Assembly: GCF_018618415.1 (NCBI RefSeq)
Contig: NZ_JACSMA010000003.1
Span: forward strand, 124,001 to 188,000
Direction of reading: 5' to 3'
Length of the DNA stretch: 64,000 bases
Source: Exiguobacterium sp. s146
Lineage (GTDB): Bacteria > Bacillota > Bacilli > Exiguobacteriales > Exiguobacteriaceae
Positions 5,884-54,289 of this stretch are shown here, piece after piece (the first letter of the stretch is position 1; each line of letters starts with the position of its first letter). Made by a program: the position numbers and the translations under genes. Under the pieces are notes generated by a model, which had not been told where the DNA came from, did not search any database, and saw nothing but the letters and a program-made list of their open reading frames with translations.

Positions 5884-5964
5884 AAAAAGAGTGATCCATT
5901 TTTTGAACCGCTCCGTTAGATGGGTGTAAACAACGACAACCACTCAAAAAAGGAGCGATTACCC

Positions 5965-7305
5965 ATGAAGAAGAAAACAATGAACAAGATTGTAGCACCG
6001 GCACTCGCACTCGGCTTACTCGTACCCTTGAATGCACAGGCAGCGGATCACGCGCCAACAGCAAGCACACCAGCAGGTGACTTACGCGCCACGCTCGACC
6101 AATTGCTGTCTGAGCATTACGTCTTAGCTGTCACATCGATGATGAAAGCTTACGACGGAGCACCTGATGCCGAAGTTGCAATGAAGGCTCTCAATCAAAA
6201 CGCACTCGACATGACACCGGCGATCGCTTCGATTTATGGAGATGAAGGCGCAGCCCAGTTCGAAGAAATCTTCGCTGGTCACAACGATTACTCAGCTGAC
6301 TTCGTCGAAGCAGCTAAATCAGAAGATGAAGCACTTCGCGCAGACGCGGAAGCTGAAGTTGAGGAATTCGTCGATGAGTTCTCAACATTCCTTGATACAG
6401 CAACAGAAGGCAACTTACCAAAAGACGCTGCAGCTGACGTACTTGAGCTTCACGAAGACCAAGTCCTCTCAGTATTCGATGACTATGTCGAAGGTGACTA
6501 TGAGTCGGCATACATGACGTACCGTGAAGGATACAAGCTCATGTTCGATATCAGTAAAGCTCTCTCAGGCGCAATCGTCACACAGATGCCTGATAAGTTT
6601 GAAACTGCTGCTGACACACCAGCCGTCGAGCTTCGTTCAACATTGAACAGCCTTGCTGGTGAGCACTTCGCCCTCGCAGCGATCGGCATGCAAAAAGGTT
6701 ACGATCAAGCTGAAGATTACGACTACGTGAGCTGGGCTGAAGATCAGAACACACTCGACTTCAAAGCAGCAATCGGCTCAGTATACGGTGACGAAGGTGC
6801 GGCCCAATTCGAAAAAGTATGGAACGGGAACCACATCACAGCACAAGGTGACATCGTTGCCGCTACACTCGAAGGCGACGAAGCTAAAATTGAAGAAGCA
6901 CGCATGAAGCTCGACCAGTTCGCTGTCGATTTCAGCACATTCCTCGATGCAGCGACAGAAGGTAACTTGCCGCAAGAAGCTGGCCAAGAAGCCATCAAAC
7001 AACATGAGGCCCTCGTGCTTCAAACGTTCGATCAGTATGTAGCTGGTGACGCGGATGCAGCTTGGATGTCATTCCGTGAAGGATACGCGTTCATGTTCGG
7101 TGTTGGTGAGACACTCGGTAACGCGATCGTGACACAAATGCCTGACAAGTTCGCTGAAACAACAATGCCTGAAGAGATGCCTGAAACAGGTCTCGGCGGT
7201 GCACAAGAACAATCAATGAACACGCTCTACGCTGGCCTTGCTGTACTTGGCGGAATCTTACTCGCCTTCGTAACGCTTCGCAACCGTAAAGTGTCTGAAC
7301 AATAA
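5965..7305 (+). CDS. Cell-wall-anchored protein with duplicated helical domain (sortase substrate)
   Basis: 446 residues. A signal peptide (1-26, ending AQA) is followed by two copies of a roughly 175-residue acidic, helix-rich domain (about 38-212 and 219-396). Both copies share YGDEGAAQFE, STFLD.ATEGNLP, YREGY or FREGY, and AIVTQMPDKF. The C-terminus is a cell-wall sorting signal: MPETG (405-409), a hydrophobic segment (418-438) and a basic tail (RNRK). M replaces the usual L of LPXTG. The sortase gene begins 20 bases downstream, so the two form a matched pair. I do not recognise the repeated domain. The start at 5965 follows AAAGGAGCGATTACCC. Confidence 0.8.
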   Translation: MKKKTMNKIVAPALALGLLVPLNAQAADHAPTASTPAGDLRATLDQLLSEHYVLAVTSMMKAYDGAPDAEVAMKALNQNALDMTPAIASIYGDEGAAQFEEIFAGHNDYSADFVEAAKSEDEALRADAEAEVEEFVDEFSTFLDTATEGNLPKDAAADVLELHEDQVLSVFDDYVEGDYESAYMTYREGYKLMFDISKALSGAIVTQMPDKFETAADTPAVELRSTLNSLAGEHFALAAIGMQKGYDQAEDYDYVSWAEDQNTLDFKAAIGSVYGDEGAAQFEKVWNGNHITAQGDIVAATLEGDEAKIEEARMKLDQFAVDFSTFLDAATEGNLPQEAGQEAIKQHEALVLQTFDQYVAGDADAAWMSFREGYAFMFGVGETLGNAIVTQMPDKFAETTMPEEMPETGLGGAQEQSMNTLYAGLAVLGGILLAFVTLRNRKVSEQ

Positions 7306-33020: not shown

Positions 33021-33749
33021 TCATCGAACGATATTGACCGAAGAGAACACGAACTTGTCATACCGGTGCCGGGCGAATGAGTATTCAAACGGCTTCCCGT
33101 TACTCAAGTAAACGACCTGTTCGACTTCAATGATCGGGTCAGTAAGGTCATTCTTCAAGTAGCGTTGGTCGTACTCGTCAGGTTTGTCGGCTCGAATCAT
33201 CTTATGCGAACTCGTGATCGTGTAGCCAAGTTCTTCTTGGATGTAGCTATAGACCGACTTCTCTAAAATCTTACGAGACAGTCCTGTAATCAGATTGGCG
33301 ACCATGTACGTCAATTCGATGACGTATGGCTCTTCGTCCACGTAGCGGACACGACGAATCTCATACACCGGTTCCGTCAACTCGATCATCAAGTGATCAG
33401 CGACTTCCTGGGTCGGGAACTTGACTTCAAAGTCGAGCACCTCGCTGCGCAAACTGCGGTCGCCGATGACTTGCGTCAATCCTCTCGTCTCTTTACTGAT
33501 GATGTTGATTCGTTCTTTTTGAAAACTGGCCGGCAAGATGAACGTCCCTTTGCCACGCTTCCGATAAATCAGACCTTCCATCACAAGAATCTCGAGGGCA
33601 CGTTTCATCGTCATCCGGCTGACGCCAAACTCTTCTGCCAATTGAATCTCATCTGGGAGCGGAGTTTCGAGTTCATAAGCTTGTTCATGGATGCGATGGC
33701 GAATCTCATCGGCAATCGATTCATATTTTGGTTTTTTCTTTGTAGACAT
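33021..33749 (-). CDS. GntR/HutC-family regulator, GmuR-like
   Basis: 242 residues. N-terminal winged helix (YESIADEIRHRIHEQAYELETPLPDEIQLAEEFGVSRMTMKRALEILV in several motifs) and a C-terminal UTRA effector domain (EPVYEIRRVRYVDEEPYVIELTYM). UTRA domains bind sugar phosphates. It follows the PTS and glycosidase genes, as gmuR does in Bacillus, and its own promoter contains ATGTCTATAC, which recurs at the divergent PTS promoter 3.5 kb away, so it probably represses both. ATG 33749 follows GAGGTGGAG. Confidence 0.85.
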   Translation of the reverse strand: MSTKKKPKYESIADEIRHRIHEQAYELETPLPDEIQLAEEFGVSRMTMKRALEILVMEGLIYRKRGKGTFILPASFQKERINIISKETRGLTQVIGDRSLRSEVLDFEVKFPTQEVADHLMIELTEPVYEIRRVRYVDEEPYVIELTYMVANLITGLSRKILEKSVYSYIQEELGYTITSSHKMIRADKPDEYDQRYLKNDLTDPIIEVEQVVYLSNGKPFEYSFARHRYDKFVFSSVNIVR

Positions 33750-33760
33750 ACTCCACCTCA

Positions 33761-33789
33761 TGTATAGACATATATGAATAATATATCAA
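33761..33789 (-). promoter_or_regulatory. Promoter and operator of the GntR gene
   Basis: Minus-strand TTGATA (33789-33784), 17 bases, TATACA (33766-33761). ATGTCTATAC on the minus strand covers the spacer end and -10 (33771-33762) and matches 37326-37335. Confidence 0.6.
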
Positions 33790-33829: not shown

Positions 33830-35254
33830 TTATTCTGTAAATCCATGATCGGCAATCACTTGTTTGAACCAGTAACCCGATTTTTTGATGGTCCGTTCTT
33901 GTGTCGCCAAATCGACACCGACGAATCCGTAACGATTCTTATAGGCGTTGCTCCATGACCAGTTGTCCATGAACGTCCATAAGTGATACCCTTTCACGTT
34001 CGCGCCTTCTTCGAGCGCCCGATGCGTCCATTTCAAATGCTCCCGGATGAAATCGATTCGGTAGTCGTCCTGGACGCTACCGTCGGCGTCACGGTAACGC
34101 TCCTCTCCTTCGACGCCCATCCCGTTCTCAGAAATAAAGCAAGGGATGTTGCCGTAGTTGTCTTTCAAATTGATCAAGATGTCGTAAACACCTTTCTCAT
34201 AAATCTCCCAACCCCGGTATGGATTCATCTTGCGACCTGGCATCTCATAGAAATCGAACAGGTTCTCCGGTAAAAACGGTGCCTCAGGGTTCGGTAGTGA
34301 CGCTTTGGCCTTGACCCGACGTGGTTGATAGTAATTGATCCCGAGAAGGTCAATCGTATTCGCCCGAATGAATTCCAAGTCGCCCGGCTGCATCTTCGGC
34401 ATCGCGTCTTGTTCACGCAACACGTCGATGAGTTCTTCGGGGAACGTCCCGAGCACGGACGGATCCAAGAACGAGCGGTTGAAGATGGCGTCAGCCAAGC
34501 GTGACGCCTGTACATCAGCCGGATGTTGGCTACGCGGATACGACGGCGTCAAATTCAAGATGATGCCGATTTGACCGGTCTGTCCTTGCGCCCGGTACGC
34601 TTGAATCGCGAGCGCGCTCGATAAGATTGAATGATACGCGACTTGAACGGCACGCTTGAAATCGACGACGTTCGGATAGTGGAAGTCGTATAGGTAGCCC
34701 CCTTCGACCGGCACGATTGGTTCATTATGAGTGAACCACGTTGTCACACGGTCACCGAAAAGCTCGAAACACGTCTTGGCGAACCGGACGTAGGCGTCGA
34801 CGACGTCACGGGACTCCCAGCCTCCGCGATTTTGAAGCGCCATCGGCATGTCGAAGTGATATAAGTTGATGAACGGCTCGATGCCGTGGTCGATGAGACA
34901 ATTGATCACGTTGTTATAGAACGTGATCGCCTCTTCATTCACCTCACCGACACCTTCCGGATACAAGCGCGACCACGAAATCGAGAAACGGAACGTGTTA
35001 TGGCCGAGCTCCTTCATGAGTGCGATGTCTTGCTCGTACAAATGATAGAAGTTAGACGCCTCGGTCGCGCTGACGCCATTGAAGAATCGGTTCGGTTGTT
35101 GCATATACCAATAATCCCAAATATTTAAGCCTTTCCCACCCTCAAACGCCGCACCTTCCATTTGCGTCGCCGAGGAGGCTGTCCCCCACCAAAAATCGGT
35201 CGGGAATTGATACGTCTCTGCTGCTGATGTTTTCGTTTCTGTTGAGTTCGTCAT
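33830..35254 (-). CDS. Family GH1 6-phospho-beta-glycosidase
   Basis: 474 residues. Acid/base Glu178 (THNEP) and nucleophile Glu376 (SENGMG) are present, with FPTDFWWGTASSATQMEG at the start. NAYKNRYGFVGVDL near the end carries the Lys and Tyr that contact the 6-phosphate in phospho-glycosidases, so it should cleave disaccharide phosphates delivered by the adjacent PTS. The neighbours (mannose-6-phosphate isomerase, ROK kinases) resemble the Bacillus gmu locus, where the orthologue GmuD acts on phosphorylated beta-glucosides or mannosides. Start ATG 35254 follows AGGGAGAGAG. Confidence 0.88.
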   Translation of the reverse strand: MTNSTETKTSAAETYQFPTDFWWGTASSATQMEGAAFEGGKGLNIWDYWYMQQPNRFFNGVSATEASNFYHLYEQDIALMKELGHNTFRFSISWSRLYPEGVGEVNEEAITFYNNVINCLIDHGIEPFINLYHFDMPMALQNRGGWESRDVVDAYVRFAKTCFELFGDRVTTWFTHNEPIVPVEGGYLYDFHYPNVVDFKRAVQVAYHSILSSALAIQAYRAQGQTGQIGIILNLTPSYPRSQHPADVQASRLADAIFNRSFLDPSVLGTFPEELIDVLREQDAMPKMQPGDLEFIRANTIDLLGINYYQPRRVKAKASLPNPEAPFLPENLFDFYEMPGRKMNPYRGWEIYEKGVYDILINLKDNYGNIPCFISENGMGVEGEERYRDADGSVQDDYRIDFIREHLKWTHRALEEGANVKGYHLWTFMDNWSWSNAYKNRYGFVGVDLATQERTIKKSGYWFKQVIADHGFTE

Positions 35255-35286: not shown

Positions 35287-36615
35287 TCACACCGCTTCGT
35301 CTTTTGGGTTAGCGGCTTCTTCCTGTTCTTTCTTCACGTTCAAACGGTCAATAAATTTAAGGAACGGGAACCACACCGCCAAGATGATTAAGAAGTTGAC
35401 GAGTTGGAGCAATCCGCCGGCGAGCGAGTTCGTCGCCATCATTCCGCTGATGAACATCGGGACGGTCCAAGGTACTGCGACCCCTGTCGGTGGCGGAACG
35501 AGCCCTGTCGACATCGCAAAGTAAGTGACTGTCACCGTGATGAGCGGTGCGACAATCCACGGAATCATGATGAGCGGGTTCATGACGATCGGCAGACCGA
35601 AAATGACCGGTTCGTTGACGTTAAAGATCCCTGGTCCGAGTGACAGTTTCCCGATTTGTTTCAACTGCTTCGATTTCAAGAACAATAAGATCGCTACGAT
35701 GACGGCAAGCGTCGAGCCCGAGCCACCAAGACCGACCGTATAGATTTCGACGAACTGTTTACTGATGATGTTCGGTACTTCTCCGGTCGCCGTGTACGCG
35801 TTCAAGTTTTCAAGTGACAACGTATTCCAAATCGGATCCATGACCGAGTTGACGATGACTTGTCCATGCAGCCCGAAGAACCAGAACAATTGGACGAAGA
35901 AGATGGCAATCAACGTTGGCACGAGACCGTTACCCAATTTAACGAGCGGCTGTTGCACGACGTTGAAGATAACATCATGTAGGTTCGTATTGAACAAGCT
36001 CGTCACACCGATGTTGAGGAGCAAGAAGACCGTGAGTGTCAACAAGGCAGGCACAAGCGCCGAGAACGACTTCGCCACCGCTGGCGGTACGCCGTCTGGC
36101 ATTTTGATCGTCCAGTTCTTTTGAACGACGAATCGATAAATCTCACCTGAGAGGAAACCGGTGATCATGGCGAGGAACATCCCTTTGGCGCCGAGACGAT
36201 CGAGCGGGAGGACGTTACCGACCGCTTCGGTCATTCCTTCGACTTCGATGAGGAACGGTGTCAACAAGAGGAACGATACGAGAGAAATCGCCCCACCGAA
36301 GACGGCTTCGACGTTGTAACTTTTCGAAAGATAATAGCCAATACCGAAAACGACGAAGATTGACATGATTCCCATCGTGGCCGACGGGGCGTTACCGAGT
36401 GACGATTTGAACGCGTTCAACGTCCCTTCCGACATGAACTTGTCTAAGAACGGCAAGTTGGCAATGACGACGACGATTGAACCGAACATCGTGATCGGGA
36501 ACGCGAGCATGAACGCATCCCGTAAGACTTGCAAATACCGACTGTTGTTCAAGTAAGTCGCCATCGGCATGAGCAACTTGCTGATCAATAAGAACATTTT
36601 GTTGTCCTGTGACAT
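35287..36615 (-). CDS. PTS EIIC, lactose/cellobiose family
   Basis: 442 residues, about ten membrane segments. FWFFGLHGQVIVNSVMDPIW, VGLGGSGSTLAVIV and GPGIFNVNEPVIFGLPIV are the sugar-binding signatures of the CelB/LicC/GmuC permeases. It imports and, with EIIA and EIIB, phosphorylates beta-linked disaccharides. The ATG at 36615 is chosen because AAGGGTG lies 6-8 bases upstream. Five bases separate it from the EIIA stop. Confidence 0.9.
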   Translation of the reverse strand: MSQDNKMFLLISKLLMPMATYLNNSRYLQVLRDAFMLAFPITMFGSIVVVIANLPFLDKFMSEGTLNAFKSSLGNAPSATMGIMSIFVVFGIGYYLSKSYNVEAVFGGAISLVSFLLLTPFLIEVEGMTEAVGNVLPLDRLGAKGMFLAMITGFLSGEIYRFVVQKNWTIKMPDGVPPAVAKSFSALVPALLTLTVFLLLNIGVTSLFNTNLHDVIFNVVQQPLVKLGNGLVPTLIAIFFVQLFWFFGLHGQVIVNSVMDPIWNTLSLENLNAYTATGEVPNIISKQFVEIYTVGLGGSGSTLAVIVAILLFLKSKQLKQIGKLSLGPGIFNVNEPVIFGLPIVMNPLIMIPWIVAPLITVTVTYFAMSTGLVPPPTGVAVPWTVPMFISGMMATNSLAGGLLQLVNFLIILAVWFPFLKFIDRLNVKKEQEEAANPKDEAV

Positions 36616-36620
36616 AGGAT

Positions 36621-36965
36621 TCACCCTTCTTGATTAGGATTTACAATCTTTTGCTCCATCATCTCGATCAGGCCAGCCGTCAAATCTAACATCGTCTGGG
36701 TCGACATGAGATGGTCTTCGGCGTGGAGGAGCAATAGTGACATGTCCGTCTTCTCCCCGTTCGCCTCTTTTTGAATTTGACCGAAGTGCGTCTGATGCGC
36801 TTCTTTCAACTGTTCACGTGCGGTCGCCAGTTTCGCTTCGAACGCTTCATATGAACCGGTCTTATACGTTTGAATCGCTTCTTGAACCGTGCTCCGTGCG
36901 TTTCCGCTATGCAGAATCATCATGAACGCCATCTGTTCCAACGTTAACTCTTCTGTTCCTTCCAT
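36621..36965 (-). CDS. PTS EIIA, lactose/cellobiose family
   Basis: 114 residues, an all-helical trimeric domain. LLLLHAEDHLMSTQTM holds the phosphorylation site (His81) and the nearby His85. It takes phosphate from HPr and passes it to EIIB. ATG 36965 follows GGGGTGA in the end of the EIIB gene; the genes are four bases apart. Confidence 0.92.
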   Translation of the reverse strand: MEGTEELTLEQMAFMMILHSGNARSTVQEAIQTYKTGSYEAFEAKLATAREQLKEAHQTHFGQIQKEANGEKTDMSLLLLHAEDHLMSTQTMLDLTAGLIEMMEQKIVNPNQEG

Positions 36966-36969
36966 GACT

Positions 36970-37266
36970 TCACCCCATCAATTTGATTGCTTGCTCATAC
37001 GCCGCTTTTCCATTCGCCGTTCCGTAGGCCATCATATCGATGACTTCGACCGGCTTCGATGTTTGCGCTTTCAATTTATCGAGCAAAAAGCGCATTTGCG
37101 GTCCGATGAGGATGACATCCGCTTCTTCCATCTCTTTTACGACCTGGTCTTGACCGACTGCCCAAATTTTCGCTTCGTCCCCGATTGACGCCGCGTGCTG
37201 TTGCATTTTCGTAACGAGCAGACTCGTCGACATACCTGAACTACAAGCAAGTAATACCTTCTTCAT
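36970..37266 (-). CDS. PTS EIIB, lactose/cellobiose family
   Basis: 98 residues. MKKVLLACSSGMSTSLLV contains the phosphorylated Cys8; VILIGPQMRFLLDKLK and DMMAYGTANGK complete the fold. It carries phosphate from EIIA to the imported sugar. First gene of an EIIB-EIIA-EIIC-glycosidase operon, the order of Bacillus gmuBACD. ATG 37266 follows AAAGGAG at 9 bases; a TTG at 37272 is too close to that site. A perfect cre site and a GntR-type operator lie upstream. Confidence 0.92.
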   Translation of the reverse strand: MKKVLLACSSGMSTSLLVTKMQQHAASIGDEAKIWAVGQDQVVKEMEEADVILIGPQMRFLLDKLKAQTSKPVEVIDMMAYGTANGKAAYEQAIKLMG

Positions 37267-37284
37267 GTTCAAACACTCCTTTTT

Positions 37285-37298
37285 TGAAATCGTTTACA
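37285..37298 (-). promoter_or_regulatory. cre site (CcpA) at the gmu-like PTS operon
   Basis: TGAAATCGTTTACA matches TGNAANCGNTNNCA at every fixed position. It lies around the predicted transcription start. Confidence 0.8.
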
Positions 37299-37304
37299 AC
37301 TTTT

Positions 37305-37335
37305 ATTATACACATGATTAATTTCATGTCTATAC
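37305..37335 (-). promoter_or_regulatory. PTS operon promoter with GntR-type operator
   Basis: Minus-strand TAGACA (37332-37327), 16 bases, TATAAT (37310-37305). ATGTCTATAC (37326-37335, plus strand) covers the -35 and is shared with the GntR gene promoter. Confidence 0.65.
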
Positions 37336-37407
37336 TTGATTTAAAGTTTGTTTAGTTTTTAAATTTGAAAGTGTATATGATAATAAATGAGAGTGAGGGA
37401 ATTGACG

Positions 37408-39192
37408 ATGAAGATTATCCCGTTACAGCCGCATTATCAATATCGCCTGTGGGGAGGCGACCGCTTGAAGCGTTTTGGTTTTAGGTTTAATGATGTGTCG
37501 ATTGGTGAGGCATGGACCGCTTCGGCGTTGCCACAAGGCAGTTCCGTCGTGTCTGCCGGACCTTATGCAGGGACGCCATTAGGTGAACTGTACGACACGC
37601 ATCGTGAACTATTCGGTATCGATGCCTCGGTGTTTCCTTTGTTAATCAAGTGGATTGATCCAAACGATGATTTATCGATTCAAGTCCATCCTGATGACGA
37701 GTTGGCACATTCGCTCGAGCAGCAACCCTATGGAAAGAATGAATGTTGGTACATCCTCGAGGCACCGGAAGATGGGGAAATTATCTACGGGCATACATTC
37801 GAATCGAAGGAAGCGTTACAACAAACGCTTGAATCCGGTGATGTGATGACTGGCTTGATTCGAAGACCTGTCAGTCGAGGTGATTTTTTATACGTGCCGG
37901 CTGGGACGGTCCACGCTTTGACGAAAGACGTATCCGTTCTTGAAATCCAACAAAGTTCGGATACGACGTACCGGCTTTATGACTATGGCCGTACCGAACC
38001 CTCAACCGGTGAGATGCGTGACCTTCACGTCAACCAAGGGACAAGCGCCGCATTCGCACCTCATCTCGATTATTCGGAACCGGTCCTGCAACTGGACCAT
38101 TTCCGGACACGGTTGACACGTAACCCATACTTCTTCGTTGAAAAATGGAAAATCGAACGCGAAGAATCTGTCTCGACGGACACGTTCCGTCTACTCTCGG
38201 TCATCGAAGGGATACTTGAGATTGACGGGTCGTCCTTCGGTATGGGTGCCACGTTATTGCTACCGGCAAACCAGTCATTTCATTTGAGCGGAACGGCCGT
38301 TTGTCTCGTCACCGGCGTCTCCTCTCCAACAAAACAAAAAGCCCGTATTGGCATCGATTTGGGCGGCACGAACACGCGCATCGCGGTCGTATCGACAGAC
38401 GGACGGGTTGAAAAGCAATATAAATTGAAGACGCAACCTGATCTAGAGCTCGCTACCTTGTTGAACCAAATCGCCCTGGCCGTCGAACGGTTCGGACTCG
38501 AATATGACCTCACACATGTCGGCATCGTGGCCCCTGGCCCACTCGACCTAAAACGAGGCGCGTTCCTGACGCCACCGAATCTCCCGAACTGGCATCATCA
38601 AGCCATCGTGGAGCCGTTGCGCACACTCCTCCGTCTACCGGTCACGTTAGAGAATGACGCCAATGCAGCAGCACTCGCCGAAGCAAAATTCGGAGCCGGT
38701 CGCCACGTCGATTCCGTCTTTTACGTCACAGTCAGCACAGGCATCGGGGGCGGGTTTGTGCATAAGCAAAACTTGATTAGCGGGGCTCACGGCAGCGCCG
38801 GAGAAGTCGGCAATATGATTATTCGAAAGGACGGACCGACTCACCCGACACTGAATGTCGGGGCACTCGAGACACATGCGAGTGGGACGGCACTGCAGAA
38901 GCGGGCCCAGCATAAAGGAATGACCGACTCGATGACACTCTTAAGCGATGAGACAGAACGCAATACGTTCGTCGACGACTTGGCAACGGGGCTCGCCAAT
39001 ATCATTCATACGGTCGATCCGGACGTCATCGTTCTTGGGGGAGGCGTGACGGCTTCGGCTCCGTTATACTGGAATCAGTTACAAGACGCGGTCGCGATGC
39101 GCGTATACCCTCATTTGAGAGGCGCGACCCCCCTCGTCCTGCAACAACTGTATGGCGACGCTGGCGTCATCGGGGCCGCGTTCTTGGCATAA
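37408..39192 (+). CDS. Fused mannose-6-phosphate isomerase and ROK sugar kinase
   Basis: 594 residues made of two enzymes. Residues 1 to about 308 are a type I mannose-6-phosphate isomerase (start FQPHYQYRLWGG-like PLQPHYQYRLWGG), with zinc ligands His94 (QVHPDD), Glu112 (NECWYIL) and His169 (PAGTVHAL). From residue 313 a complete ROK kinase follows (IGIDLGGTNTR ATP loop, ENDANAAALAEA with the catalytic Asp, VSTGIGGG). The ROK zinc motif (CxCGxxGC) is absent; LNVGALETHASG stands in its place. In Bacillus gmuE (kinase) and gmuF (isomerase) are separate neighbours, so this is a natural fusion converting mannose or fructose to fructose-6-phosphate. One continuous frame; ATG 37408 follows GTGAGGGA. 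Confidence 0.92.
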   Translation: MKIIPLQPHYQYRLWGGDRLKRFGFRFNDVSIGEAWTASALPQGSSVVSAGPYAGTPLGELYDTHRELFGIDASVFPLLIKWIDPNDDLSIQVHPDDELAHSLEQQPYGKNECWYILEAPEDGEIIYGHTFESKEALQQTLESGDVMTGLIRRPVSRGDFLYVPAGTVHALTKDVSVLEIQQSSDTTYRLYDYGRTEPSTGEMRDLHVNQGTSAAFAPHLDYSEPVLQLDHFRTRLTRNPYFFVEKWKIEREESVSTDTFRLLSVIEGILEIDGSSFGMGATLLLPANQSFHLSGTAVCLVTGVSSPTKQKARIGIDLGGTNTRIAVVSTDGRVEKQYKLKTQPDLELATLLNQIALAVERFGLEYDLTHVGIVAPGPLDLKRGAFLTPPNLPNWHHQAIVEPLRTLLRLPVTLENDANAAALAEAKFGAGRHVDSVFYVTVSTGIGGGFVHKQNLISGAHGSAGEVGNMIIRKDGPTHPTLNVGALETHASGTALQKRAQHKGMTDSMTLLSDETERNTFVDDLATGLANIIHTVDPDVIVLGGGVTASAPLYWNQLQDAVAMRVYPHLRGATPLVLQQLYGDAGVIGAAFLA

Positions 39193-39208: not shown

Positions 39209-40081
39209 ATGCAACATTATTTAGCCATCGATATTGGTGGAACCAGTATCAAATACGGAGTCGTCCAAGCCGACGGCAACCTCTTGTCGAACAAACACGT
39301 CCCAACCCCAACGACGTGGGACGACTTGCTTGATCAAGTCGATGCAATTTTTAACGAAGCTACCGCCGAGGCCCCACTCGACGGTATCGCCTTCAGCGCA
39401 CCTGGCTCCGTCGACTCGACGACCGGTGTGATTCACGGCATCAGCGCATTGCCGTATATCCATAATCGTCCGTTTTTACAAGCGTTCGAAGACCGTTATG
39501 ACTTACCGGTCACCGTCTTGAACGATGCCAATGCGGCAGCACTCGCAGAAGGATGGAACGGTGCGGCCGCATCCGTGAAACGCTACGCGACCGTAGTCAT
39601 CGGAACCGGCATCGGCGGTGCGTTCATCGACTCGAACGTCCTCATGGTCGGGTCGCATTTCCACGGCGGTGAGTACGGGTACTGGATTTTGGACCCGAAC
39701 TTGCCACATCCCGATGGAACATGGAGCGCCATCGGTTCGACGGCCATTCTCGTCAAACGGTGCAGCGAACAGCTCGGTCGTCCGCTCACTGGAAAAGATG
39801 TGTTCGCACTTCAAACCGATCCGGTCATCCAAACAGAATTAGAACGCTTCTATCGCTGGAACGCGATCGGCATATATAATCTCCAATTCGGACTCGACCC
39901 GGAGCTGATTTTAATCGGTGGCGGTATCAGTCGCCGTCCTGAAGTCCGAGACAGTATCAAGCGACACTTGGATGCGCTCTGTGACGCGTTCGGAACGTTC
40001 CACATCGATCTCGAAACGTGTGCCCACTTCAACGAGGCCAACTTGATTGGCGCCGCACGGTTTCACATGTTAGCGCAGTAA
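39209..40081 (+). CDS. ROK-family sugar kinase
   Basis: 290 residues. LAIDIGGTSIKYGVV is the ATP loop and LNDANAAALAEGW holds the catalytic Asp; VIGTGIGGAFI follows. As in BglK-type beta-glucoside kinases, the zinc motif of glucokinases is missing (HFHGGEYGYWILD and no cysteine cluster). It probably phosphorylates glucose, mannose or a beta-glucoside. It begins 16 bases after the fused gene behind AAGGAGCGGAAAG, in the same operon, and ends at a strong bidirectional terminator. Confidence 0.85.
   Translation: MQHYLAIDIGGTSIKYGVVQADGNLLSNKHVPTPTTWDDLLDQVDAIFNEATAEAPLDGIAFSAPGSVDSTTGVIHGISALPYIHNRPFLQAFEDRYDLPVTVLNDANAAALAEGWNGAAASVKRYATVVIGTGIGGAFIDSNVLMVGSHFHGGEYGYWILDPNLPHPDGTWSAIGSTAILVKRCSEQLGRPLTGKDVFALQTDPVIQTELERFYRWNAIGIYNLQFGLDPELILIGGGISRRPEVRDSIKRHLDALCDAFGTFHIDLETCAHFNEANLIGAARFHMLAQ

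Positions 40082-42925: not shown

Positions 42926-42928
<3 letters not shown>
42894..42928. terminator. Bidirectional palindromic terminator before bglH
   Basis: A perfect 32-base palindrome (42895-42926) centred on CCGCGG with A/T-run ends, shared by convergent genes; both stop codons touch it. Confidence 0.92.
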
Positions 42929-46252
<3,324 letters not shown>

Positions 46253-46267
46253 TCATGGGTTTAGTAA

Positions 46268-46339
46268 AAAAGAAAAACCTAAATGAACGCACACAAATGT
46301 GTCGTCATTTAGGTTTGGCCTGCTTGATCAGTAACCATC
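46268..46339 (-). promoter_or_regulatory. LicT antiterminator (RAT) and terminator before bglP
   Basis: Minus strand: GGTTACTGATCAAGCAGGCC followed by AAACCT (RAT, 46339-46311), overlapping a terminator with 12 bp arms AAACCTAAATGA/TCATTTAGGTTT (46275-46316) and a T-run. This is the classic mutually exclusive RAT/terminator layout. Confidence 0.9.
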
Positions 46340-46340
46340 C

Positions 46341-47192
46341 TTAGGATCGTCGTTCCTTCATTAAGTTTTCGATATGAATCATCATATACAGCCGTTCATC
46401 GGTCGAGACCTCGTAATTGTATTTCGTCGCGATCAGACCGGCGATTTTCTCGACACAGTCATAGGCTTCCGGATAGCGCAACTTCACCATCTCGAACAGC
46501 GTCTCATCGCCACCCGGCTTGATTTTCTCGCCTGAGGCGAGGCGTTGGACGAAATACTTCAAATGGGTTAAAAACCGGGCGTAGGCGTAAGATTCTTCAT
46601 CCAAGTCGACTTGAAAATGGTACGTGATGATGGTGAGGATCGCTTGTGTGGCCCGTGTCATCTCGGTGACGAGATGTAAGTTCTCGCCCTTCGCGCCCGA
46701 CATCGTCGCATTGACGAGATGGAGCGCGATAGCGACCGCCTCATCCTCATCCAACTTGACGTCATGCCGTTCGTTGATGAGGGCGACCGCTTCTTTCCCG
46801 ATGGTAAACTCGGGTCCGTAAAACCGTTTGACTTCCCAAACGAGCGGGTTGCGGATCATGATTCCCTCGCGATACCGACTGAGCGCGAAATGGATGTGGT
46901 CGGCGAGCGTCACGTAAAGCGAGTCATGGACCGCTTTATCGAGCCGTGTCTCGGCGAGTTTGACGATTTCTTTGACCGTATCCATCTCGGCGGCCGGCAT
47001 CTCATTCAAAAAATGGACGAATCGTTCGTGGCTCTCTTTACTCTCGAGCGTAAAGACCTTTTCAATCCGCGCTTGATCAATCGCATCGCCCGGACGCTTT
47101 TGAAACGCGATTCCCCGTCCCATCACGACTTGCTCTTGACCGTTCGCTTGAATGGCCACGACGTTGTTGTTGAACACTTTTGAAATGTGCAT
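46341..47192 (-). CDS. licT: BglG-family transcriptional antiterminator LicT
   Basis: 283 residues. RNA-binding CAT domain (1-55, ISKVFNNNVVAIQ), PRD1 with His99 and His158, PRD2 with His210 and a final His in MMIHIENL. When active it binds the RAT hairpin and prevents termination; EII and HPr phosphorylate the PRD histidines to report substrate and carbon state. It is transcribed with bglP and bglH, and one RAT/terminator lies upstream of licT itself, so it controls its own synthesis as well. Confidence 0.94.
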   Translation of the reverse strand: MHISKVFNNNVVAIQANGQEQVVMGRGIAFQKRPGDAIDQARIEKVFTLESKESHERFVHFLNEMPAAEMDTVKEIVKLAETRLDKAVHDSLYVTLADHIHFALSRYREGIMIRNPLVWEVKRFYGPEFTIGKEAVALINERHDVKLDEDEAVAIALHLVNATMSGAKGENLHLVTEMTRATQAILTIITYHFQVDLDEESYAYARFLTHLKYFVQRLASGEKIKPGGDETLFEMVKLRYPEAYDCVEKIAGLIATKYNYEVSTDERLYMMIHIENLMKERRS

Positions 47193-51956: not shown

Positions 51957-52805
51957 ATGTTAAAAATCAAAAAGATTCTAAACAACAACGCCGTCATCGT
52001 CTCGGACGAGGGTGAAGAAAAAATCGCCATCGGACCGGGCGTCGCATTCAAGAAGGCACGCAACGATATCGTCAATCCGCATAAAGTTGAAAAGTTGTTT
52101 GTCATGTCCGAGAACGATAAATTTCAACAGCTATTGACGCGGATTCCGATCGAGCACTTCACGATTTCAGAAGAAATCATCTCGCATGCCGAAAAACGGC
52201 TCGAGACGACGTTCAACGAACACATCCATATCGTCCTCACCGATCATATCTCGTTCGCCATCGAACGCGAGCAAGAAGGCATCTCGCTCCGGAACAAACT
52301 GTTGAACGAGATTAAGATTTTATATCGCAACGAGTACGAGATTGGACTATGGGCGCTGCACCTCATCGAGGACAAACTCGGCGTCAAGATGCCAAAAGAT
52401 GAGGCGGCCTTCATCGCGCTCCACATCCATACACTCAAAGTGAAGGGAGGTGATTTACGCAAGACGGTCAAACAGACGACAATCGTACGTGACATGATTC
52501 AATCGATTTCGAGACGACTCGATCTATCTATAGAAGAAGATGACTTATCCTATCAACGCTTATTAACCCATTTACGATTCGTCATGGATCGGGTCAACCA
52601 TTACGATCACCATACGATCGACGAAGATATGCTTCTCATGATTCAGACGAAGTTCTCGTCGGCCTATGCATGTGCGTCTGACGTCGCCAACGAAATGGAA
52701 GACTTATACGGCATCGTCTTGCCCGAATCAGAGCTCGGCTATATCACGCTTCACATTCAACGTCTGCAAGATCAACACCATCAAAAAGGAGGACATTCAC
52801 AATGA
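51957..52805 (+). CDS. glcT: Transcriptional antiterminator GlcT
   Basis: 282 residues. RNA-binding domain (LKIKKILNNNAVIV), PRD1 (His97, His156) and PRD2 (His205 and a final His in TLHIQRLQ). It prevents termination at the glucose-operon RAT when not phosphorylated by EII-Glc. AGGAGG precedes the ATG at 51957. Its stop overlaps the ptsG start by four bases. As it lies downstream of its own RAT, low basal read-through must supply the first molecules. Confidence 0.93.
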   Translation: MLKIKKILNNNAVIVSDEGEEKIAIGPGVAFKKARNDIVNPHKVEKLFVMSENDKFQQLLTRIPIEHFTISEEIISHAEKRLETTFNEHIHIVLTDHISFAIEREQEGISLRNKLLNEIKILYRNEYEIGLWALHLIEDKLGVKMPKDEAAFIALHIHTLKVKGGDLRKTVKQTTIVRDMIQSISRRLDLSIEEDDLSYQRLLTHLRFVMDRVNHYDHHTIDEDMLLMIQTKFSSAYACASDVANEMEDLYGIVLPESELGYITLHIQRLQDQHHQKGGHSQ

Positions 52806-54289
52806 TGAACTTTTTACAACGTCTCGGACGTTCCCTCATGTTGCCGGTTGCGGTACTTCCTGCAGCTGCCATTCTCATGGGGATTGGTTACTGGATTGAT
52901 CCCGTCGGTTGGGGTTCTGAGAACATCGCCGCCGCGTTCCTCATCAAAGCCGGTTCAGCCATTATCGATAACATTCCAATTCTCTTCGCCGTCGGGGTCG
53001 CCCTCGGTATGGCGAAAAACCGTGACGGCTCAGCCGCGCTAAGCGGACTTGTCGCCTTCCTCACGGTCACGACGCTCTTGTCTTCGGCTACGGTCGCCTT
53101 GTTCCAAGGTGTCGACGTCGAAGCCGTCAACCCTGCGTTCGGTAAGATTGCCAACGCATTCGTCGGGATTCTGTCAGGGATTGTCGCCGCTCAAATGTAT
53201 AATCGCTTCAGCCATGTGAAATTGCCAGACGCGCTCGCATTCTTCAGCGGTAAGCGTCTCGTGCCGATCATGACAGCGTTCTCAATGATTCTCGTCTCGG
53301 TCGCCCTCTACTTCGTCTGGCCGGTCGTTTACACCGGACTCGTCGGATTTGGGGAAACGATCTCGAAAATGGGCGCATTCGGTGCCGGCCTTTATGGCTT
53401 CTTCAACCGCTTGTTGATCCCGACAGGTCTCCACCACGCCTTGAACTCCGTGTTCTGGTTCGATGTGGCCGGTATCAATGACATCGGTAACTTCTGGTCA
53501 GGTGAAGGTGTGAAAGGGATCACGGGACGCTATCAAGCCGGGTTCTTCCCAATCATGATGTTCGGTCTCCCAGCAGCAGCCCTCGCGATGTACCACACTG
53601 CGAAAACGAAACGGAAGAAACAAGCGGCATCGCTTCTTCTCGCCGCGGCGTTCGCTTCATTCTTCACAGGTGTCACGGAACCCCTCGAATTCTCGTTCAT
53701 GTTCCTCGCACCAGTTCTTTACCTCGTGCACGCGGTCTTGACAGGGATTTCCCTCTTCATCGCGGCGACGTTCCAATGGACAGCCGGGTTCGGCTTCAGT
53801 GCCGGTCTCGTCGACTTCGTCCTCAGTTCGCGCTTACCACTTGCGAACCAGCCTTACATGTTGCTCGTCCAAGGTCTCGTCTTCGGTGCCATCTACTACG
53901 TCATCTTCCGCTTCATGATCGTCAAACTCAACTTGGCGACACCAGGTCGTGAGTCAGACGAAGCAGTGGACGCGGTCGCAACGGAAACAGCGCCTGAAGG
54001 TGAAACACGCACGGCTCCAGTCGCAGCCGGTGGACAGTACTCTGCCATGGCAGCGATGATTTACGATGGTCTCGGTGGCGATCAAAACGTCACGGGCATC
54101 GAATCGTGCGTCACGCGCCTCCGTGTCGATGTGAAAGACATGGATACAGTCGACCAAGCTCAAATCAAGAAAGCAGGCATCCCTGGCATCAAGGTTGTCA
54201 GCCCGAACCACATTCAAGTCATCGTCGGCACGAACGTCCAATTCGTCCTCGAAGAGATTGAAAAACTCCGGAGCCACCGCGCCGGATAA
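52802..54289 (+). CDS. ptsG: PTS glucose-type EIICB
   Basis: 495 residues. EIIC domain (about 1-385) with ten helices: GRSLMLPVAVLPAAAILMGIG and FFTGVTEPLEFSFMFLAP. EIIB domain after a linker, with the phosphorylated Cys in GIESCVTRLRVDV. It transports glucose (or a related hexose such as N-acetylglucosamine) with phosphorylation. ATG 52802 follows AGGAGG at 9 bases. The EIIA domain found on the same chain in Bacillus is encoded separately upstream. Confidence 0.93.
   Translation: MMNFLQRLGRSLMLPVAVLPAAAILMGIGYWIDPVGWGSENIAAAFLIKAGSAIIDNIPILFAVGVALGMAKNRDGSAALSGLVAFLTVTTLLSSATVALFQGVDVEAVNPAFGKIANAFVGILSGIVAAQMYNRFSHVKLPDALAFFSGKRLVPIMTAFSMILVSVALYFVWPVVYTGLVGFGETISKMGAFGAGLYGFFNRLLIPTGLHHALNSVFWFDVAGINDIGNFWSGEGVKGITGRYQAGFFPIMMFGLPAAALAMYHTAKTKRKKQAASLLLAAAFASFFTGVTEPLEFSFMFLAPVLYLVHAVLTGISLFIAATFQWTAGFGFSAGLVDFVLSSRLPLANQPYMLLVQGLVFGAIYYVIFRFMIVKLNLATPGRESDEAVDAVATETAPEGETRTAPVAAGGQYSAMAAMIYDGLGGDQNVTGIESCVTRLRVDVKDMDTVDQAQIKKAGIPGIKVVSPNHIQVIVGTNVQFVLEEIEKLRSHRAG

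Follow-up and report, generated by a model that had tools for sequence, protein, structure and literature searches.

A conserved phosphomannose isomerase–ROK kinase fusion in a gmu-like locus of Exiguobacterium

Introduction

The closest described counterpart of the locus analysed here is the gmuBACDREFG gene set of Bacillus subtilis, the gene order of which is taken from PMC11669640. It contains one phosphomannose isomerase (PMI), GmuF, and one ROK kinase, the fructokinase GmuE. A ROK kinase that is joined to a sugar-converting enzyme is known from GNE, the bifunctional UDP-GlcNAc 2-epimerase/ManNAc kinase of the animal sialic acid pathway, in which the epimerase partner is unrelated to PMI. 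GNE is a precedent for such a fusion, not a homologue. ROK kinases are characterized by a CxCGxxGCxE zinc motif, although zinc-less members of the family are known (PMC5458393), and the zinc-less kinases FnNanK (PDB entry 5nck) and SaNanK (PDB entry 6q26) are active (PMC10017367).

Here, we describe a gene that encodes a PMI and a ROK kinase in one polypeptide. It lies in a stretch of 64,000 nucleotides from Exiguobacterium sp. s146 (the window; contig NZ_JACSMA010000003.1, positions 124,001 to 188,000), and the same fusion is found intact and uninterrupted in 18 of the 399 Bacilli genomes that were sampled. A search of open-licence papers for a PMI–ROK fusion returned nothing relevant, and no characterized enzyme of the ROK lineage to which the fused kinase belongs was found in the open-licence literature. 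We provisionally regard the gene as a conserved, so far undescribed fusion inside a known kind of pathway. The features of the locus are collected in Table 1.

Table 1. Features of the fusion locus, with positions in the window
Feature	Position	Strand	Basis
GntR/UTRA regulator (gmuR position)	33021..33761	-	Pfam, locus comparison
GH1 6-phospho-beta-glycosidase-like enzyme (gmuD position)	33830..35254	-	Pfam, locus comparison
PTS EIIC, lactose/cellobiose family (gmuC position)	35287..36624	-	Pfam, NCBIfam, subfamily search
PTS EIIA, lactose/cellobiose family (gmuA position)	36621..36965	-	Pfam, locus comparison
PTS EIIB, lactose/cellobiose family (gmuB position)	36970..37272	-	Pfam, locus comparison
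CcpA cre-like site TGAAATCGTTTACA, palindromic, perfect consensus	37285..37298		Motif scan
TGTCTATACTT, putative GntR operator	37327..37337		Comparison of 18 loci
Type I phosphomannose isomerase half (residues 1-304)	37408..38319	+	Pfam, NCBIfam, structure match
Linker (residues 305-310, about 6 residues)	38320..38337	+	AlphaFold2 model, structure match
ROK kinase half (residues 311-594) and stop	38338..39192	+	Pfam, residue alignment, structure match
Replaced ROK zinc/sugar motif: E466-V-G-N469 for ExGH, HPTLNVGALE for CxCGxxGCxE	38803..38871	+	Residue alignment
Second ROK kinase, BglK-like, about 20 bp after the fusion stop	39212..40081	+	Pfam, NCBIfam

Domain structure of the fusion

The fused gene is a single stop-free frame of 594 amino acids (37408–39192, forward strand), open from either of two in-frame ATG codons at 37387 and 37408. 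The second is the better start: GTGAGGG in front of it is more suitably spaced as a ribosome-binding site, and a start at this position is retained across the other copies. In most of these an AGGAGG-type site precedes the equivalent ATG.

Three Pfam domains are recognized: PMI_typeI_cat (residues 4–106), MPI_cupin (residues 238–301) and ROK (residues 314–594). The isomerase half scores 141.3 bits against TIGR00218 (manA; NCBIfam), above the curated cut-off of 116.2 bits, and is thus a type I PMI. The kinase half scores 186 bits against PF00480 (gathering cut-off 22.9 bits) and belongs to the ROK family, while it passes no equivalog cut-off in NCBIfam. The AlphaFold2 model of the fusion is confident throughout (mean pLDDT 93.5, pTM 0.89). 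Residues 1–304 superpose on the PMI of B. subtilis (PDB entry 1qwr) with a Z-score of 40.6, 1.3 Å and 42% sequence identity, and residues 311–594 match ROK kinases with Z-scores of up to 27.9 (PDB entry 3vov); PDB entries 2yhy and 3eo3, which represent the kinase domain of GNE, are among the hits. The aligned ranges extend over the full length of each domain, so that neither half is truncated. The first-pass annotation, which had read the frame as an in-frame fusion of two full-length enzymes, is borne out on this point by the open frame, the Pfam and NCBIfam domains and the structure matches.

A separate internal start for the kinase was considered, but none is obvious near the junction in the window copy, where the 23 codons before DLGGT contain no ATG, GTG or TTG; other copies vary. 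In G213 and G222 (loci L054/L072 and L055/L073) an in-frame ATG behind AAGGGG or AAAGGG is present at the domain junction, and in G009, G221 and G263 an ATG lies within the linker. The junction ATG of G213 and G222 is possibly a relic of an earlier kinase start.

Origin of the two halves

The kinase halves form one clade (support 99/98) that is nested among standalone zinc-less kinases and lies apart from the YdhR/GmuE-type kinases. YdhR/GmuE of B. subtilis (PDB entry 1xc3) scores 65 bits against the fused kinase, compared with 457 bits against the gmu-type kinase of genome G173. The fused kinase is therefore not a member of the YdhR clade, and the initial view that it is the fused counterpart of GmuE has to be abandoned. 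The separate clade and the low YdhR score together reject a GmuE-type origin.

The PMI halves resemble ordinary type I PMIs such as 1qwr in fold and in all zinc ligands, but carry a C-terminal kinase and form a clade of their own in the tree without three long-branch rows (support 97/93); with these rows kept in they do not form one clade. The ordinary PMIs of Exiguobacterium are not their sister group and sit elsewhere in the tree, and an origin from the ordinary PMI gene of the genus is rejected. In a tree of the neighbouring PTS and GH1 genes the fusion cassettes are joined weakly (61/47). A single fusion event would be the simplest and, in our view, the best reading of the kinase and PMI trees, and several separate events are not supported by either of the clades described above. 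An unfused arrangement is seen in G193, where a PMI gene is followed 185 bp downstream by a kinase of the zinc-less lineage.

The surrounding cassette and its regulation

The fusion is transcribed divergently from a row of EIIB, EIIA, EIIC, GH1 and GntR genes. These genes and their order are those of gmuBACDR, which agrees with the gmu-like setting proposed in the first-pass annotation. The locus differs from that of B. subtilis in the divergent transcription, in the union of PMI and kinase in one protein, in the zinc-less lineage of the kinase and in the GH26 mannanase (gmuG), for which PF02156 gives no match in the 19 genomes of the genus.

The EIIC subfamily is present in 18/18 fusion genomes, and within the family the 15 genomes that have an EIIC of at least 85% identity are precisely those with the fusion. 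In the wide loci compared, EIIB–EIIA–EIIC, GH1 and GntR adjoin the fusion, except that GntR is found downstream of it in G213 and G222. Cassettes in which EIIC is 68–73% identical (G173, G166, G220 and G358) are without the fusion. In G173, EIIB–EIIA–EIIC–GH1 is followed by a YdhR-type kinase and then a PMI, and the other three are variants of this arrangement; kinase and PMI are separate genes in the same-type PTS/GH1 cassettes of G173 and G166. The BglK-like kinase that follows the fusion in the window directly adjoins it only in the subclade of the window, among the loci read. A homologue of this kinase adjoins a PMI in G063.

Two short sequences stand out in the divergent intergenic region. 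The cre-like site, with 0.2 matches expected over the two strands of the window, is present in 15/15 Exiguobacteriaceae copies and absent from G074, G213 and G222. The second element, TGTCTATACTT, is present in 18/18 fusion loci (0.02 matches expected in the window) and also precedes EIIB in cassettes without the fusion, L151, L152 and L155 of G166, G173 and G245. We take it as a putative operator of the GntR regulator, and the fusion and the PTS/GH1 genes are predicted to be co-regulated.

Proposed function

We propose, with a probability of roughly 70%, that the fusion is a bifunctional mannokinase/mannose-6-phosphate isomerase in a gmu-type pathway for β-manno-oligosaccharides; both its catalytic activity and its substrate specificity are inferred. 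In this pathway EIIBAC would import and phosphorylate a short β-mannoside, for example mannobiose or a mixed glucose–mannose disaccharide. Cleavage of the phosphorylated import by the GH1 enzyme would yield a 6-phosphosugar together with a free hexose, in many cases mannose. The C-terminal ROK half would convert mannose and ATP to mannose 6-phosphate, and the N-terminal half would convert mannose 6-phosphate, both from the kinase and from the pool released by GH1, to fructose 6-phosphate. Another ROK lineage would have taken the kinase slot of the gmu-type pathway and afterwards become tied to the isomerase, and the step from free mannose to the glycolytic intermediate fructose 6-phosphate could run on a single molecule in Exiguobacterium as well as in a small number of Bacilli outside this genus.

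Mannose is the likely kinase substrate in view of the isomerase as fusion partner and of the neighbours of standalone kinases of the same lineage. The kinase of G193 adjoins both a PMI and a GH130 mannooligosaccharide phosphorylase, that of G048 adjoins a GH130 gene, that of G129 lies in a PTS–GH1 cassette with a PMI 4.5 kb away and that of G056 adjoins an AGE-family epimerase. Against a role in mannose use, neither of the two neighbours scanned for the standalone kinase of G131 is a sugar gene, and the kinase of G334 is 5.5 kb from a PMI with no other mannan genes seen. It had also been suggested that the fusion could channel mannose or fructose. Mannose stands as a sensible substrate, while fructose is doubtful: once phosphorylated it is already fructose 6-phosphate, so it gains nothing from the isomerase and bypasses it. 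The substrate that would explain the fusion is mannose. The ROK fructokinases of Lactococcus lactis and Streptococcus mutans accept mannose as well (PMC4412284). If the assignment is correct, mannose would be a likely substrate for an uncharacterized zinc-less ROK lineage.

A kinase that prefers glucose, fructose or an amino sugar, with the fusion serving co-expression and stoichiometry and no two-step relay, is the less likely reading that deserves most attention. The nearest solved relatives of the kinase half are glucokinases and ManNAc kinases, and the PTS and GH1 genes resemble cellobiose systems, where cleavage would release glucose. The genome, however, has a separate conventional ROK gene of the glucokinase type with the zinc motif (L002), and the PMI and GH130 genes beside standalone kin also speak against this reading. 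With no GH26 mannanase found in the genus, a cell using the mannoside pathway would depend on external short oligosaccharides or on a mannanase that belongs to a different family, and the natural substrate may be another β-glycoside. The fused gene is the sole PMI detected in the genome of the window (fused-protein query, E ≤ 1e-3), so the fusion may also serve general mannose 6-phosphate metabolism there.

Within the bifunctional mannokinase/isomerase reading, a rigid relay between the two active sites, in which mannose 6-phosphate passes from kinase to isomerase with little escape, appears improbable. The pTM value fits a fixed domain arrangement, while a path between the active sites is not shown by the model. 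Should the relay exist, it would be to our knowledge the first kinase–isomerase fusion for mannose. The fusion offers a natural two-step enzyme for tests of channelling.

Active-site residues and selection

In the isomerase half the zinc ligands Gln92, His94, Glu112 and His169 and the catalytic residues Lys110 and Arg189, assigned by homology, are invariant in 18/18 copies. Together with the TIGR00218 score this confirms the complete type I isomerase with all zinc ligands that had been claimed. In the kinase half the DxGGT motif (Asp317, Gly319, Gly320 and Thr321), Glu415, Asn416, the catalytic Asp417 (in END), Glu466, Glu488, Gly545 and Gly546 are identical in 18/18 copies, and Asn394 is the sole active-site candidate that varies among the residues tested. 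The description of this half as a complete ROK kinase holds for its length and catalytic core but not for its zinc motif, which is absent: all 18 copies read HPxLNxGxxE in place of CxCGxxGCx(E/D). The sugar-binding motif is likewise ExGN rather than ExGH in 18/18 fusions.

The lack of a zinc motif is shared with FnNanK and SaNanK, which have the ROK fold without CxCGxxGCxE. FnNanK retains the histidine of ExGH, in contrast to the asparagine of all fused kinases and most of their standalone kin. Both the zinc motif and this histidine are lost in the standalone relatives G193, G056, G334, G131 and G129; in a sixth, G048, the histidine is replaced by glutamine. Zinc loss therefore predates the fusion. 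The change of histidine to asparagine may have altered the choice of sugar.

These losses are also what could suggest a catalytically dead kinase half that now serves the isomerase in a structural or regulatory role, the more so as a report cited in PMC5458393 describes B. subtilis glucokinase as inactive once its zinc cysteines are mutated. We consider this very unlikely. The DxGGT motif, the catalytic aspartate, both sugar-contact glutamates and the tested glycines of the GGG loop are invariant, and the zinc-less NanKs are active enzymes (PMC10017367). Moreover, the pairwise dN/dS is no higher in the kinase half (0.05–0.14) than in the isomerase half (0.10–0.24; pairs with unsaturated dS), and both halves are under purifying selection.

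Occurrence of the fusion

The fusion is present in 7/19 genomes of the genus of the window and, at 51–52% identity, in 8/19 of the genomes sampled from its sister genus within the family. The remaining copies, in G074 (48% identity) and in G213 and G222 (42–43%), belong to two other families. A phylum-wide search of 299 genomes gave no further copy at E ≤ 1e-75; beyond the phylum, the search covered the plasmid collection, in which two complete Exiguobacterium acetylicum plasmids carry the fusion. One of them (184,468 bp) is probably the same record as the fusion-bearing contig of G333. The first-pass annotation had asked whether the junction at 38300–38345 might be a sequencing error and whether the fusion exists in other genomes. 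The same frame in the 18 genomes and in the complete plasmids answers both points, and the fusion is real. Unfused adjacent PMI and ROK genes do occur in relatives, but an assembly or frameshift artefact that joined two such genes is excluded for practical purposes by these independent uninterrupted copies.

On the E. acetylicum plasmids, which are mobilizable and of the MOBP type (L067 and L068), the whole PTS–GH1–GntR–fusion cassette is present. A plasmid-borne cassette offers a route for spread. PGAP labels the plasmid copies as 'type I phosphomannose isomerase catalytic subunit' with no mention of the kinase, so metabolic models would overlook a kinase activity. In G341, which also carries an intact fusion, a 5'-truncated kinase copy without the PMI half (L075, 8440–9189, reverse strand) is apparently the remnant of a second fusion gene.

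Other genes in the window

A 461-residue frame at 5920–7305 (forward strand), just upstream of a sortase gene, has no Pfam match at E 1e-6. A further PTS module lies near the fusion at 42926–47192 and consists of a GH1 gene, an EIIBCA permease and a CAT/PRD antiterminator. Another PRD antiterminator and an EIIBC permease are found at 51957–54289.
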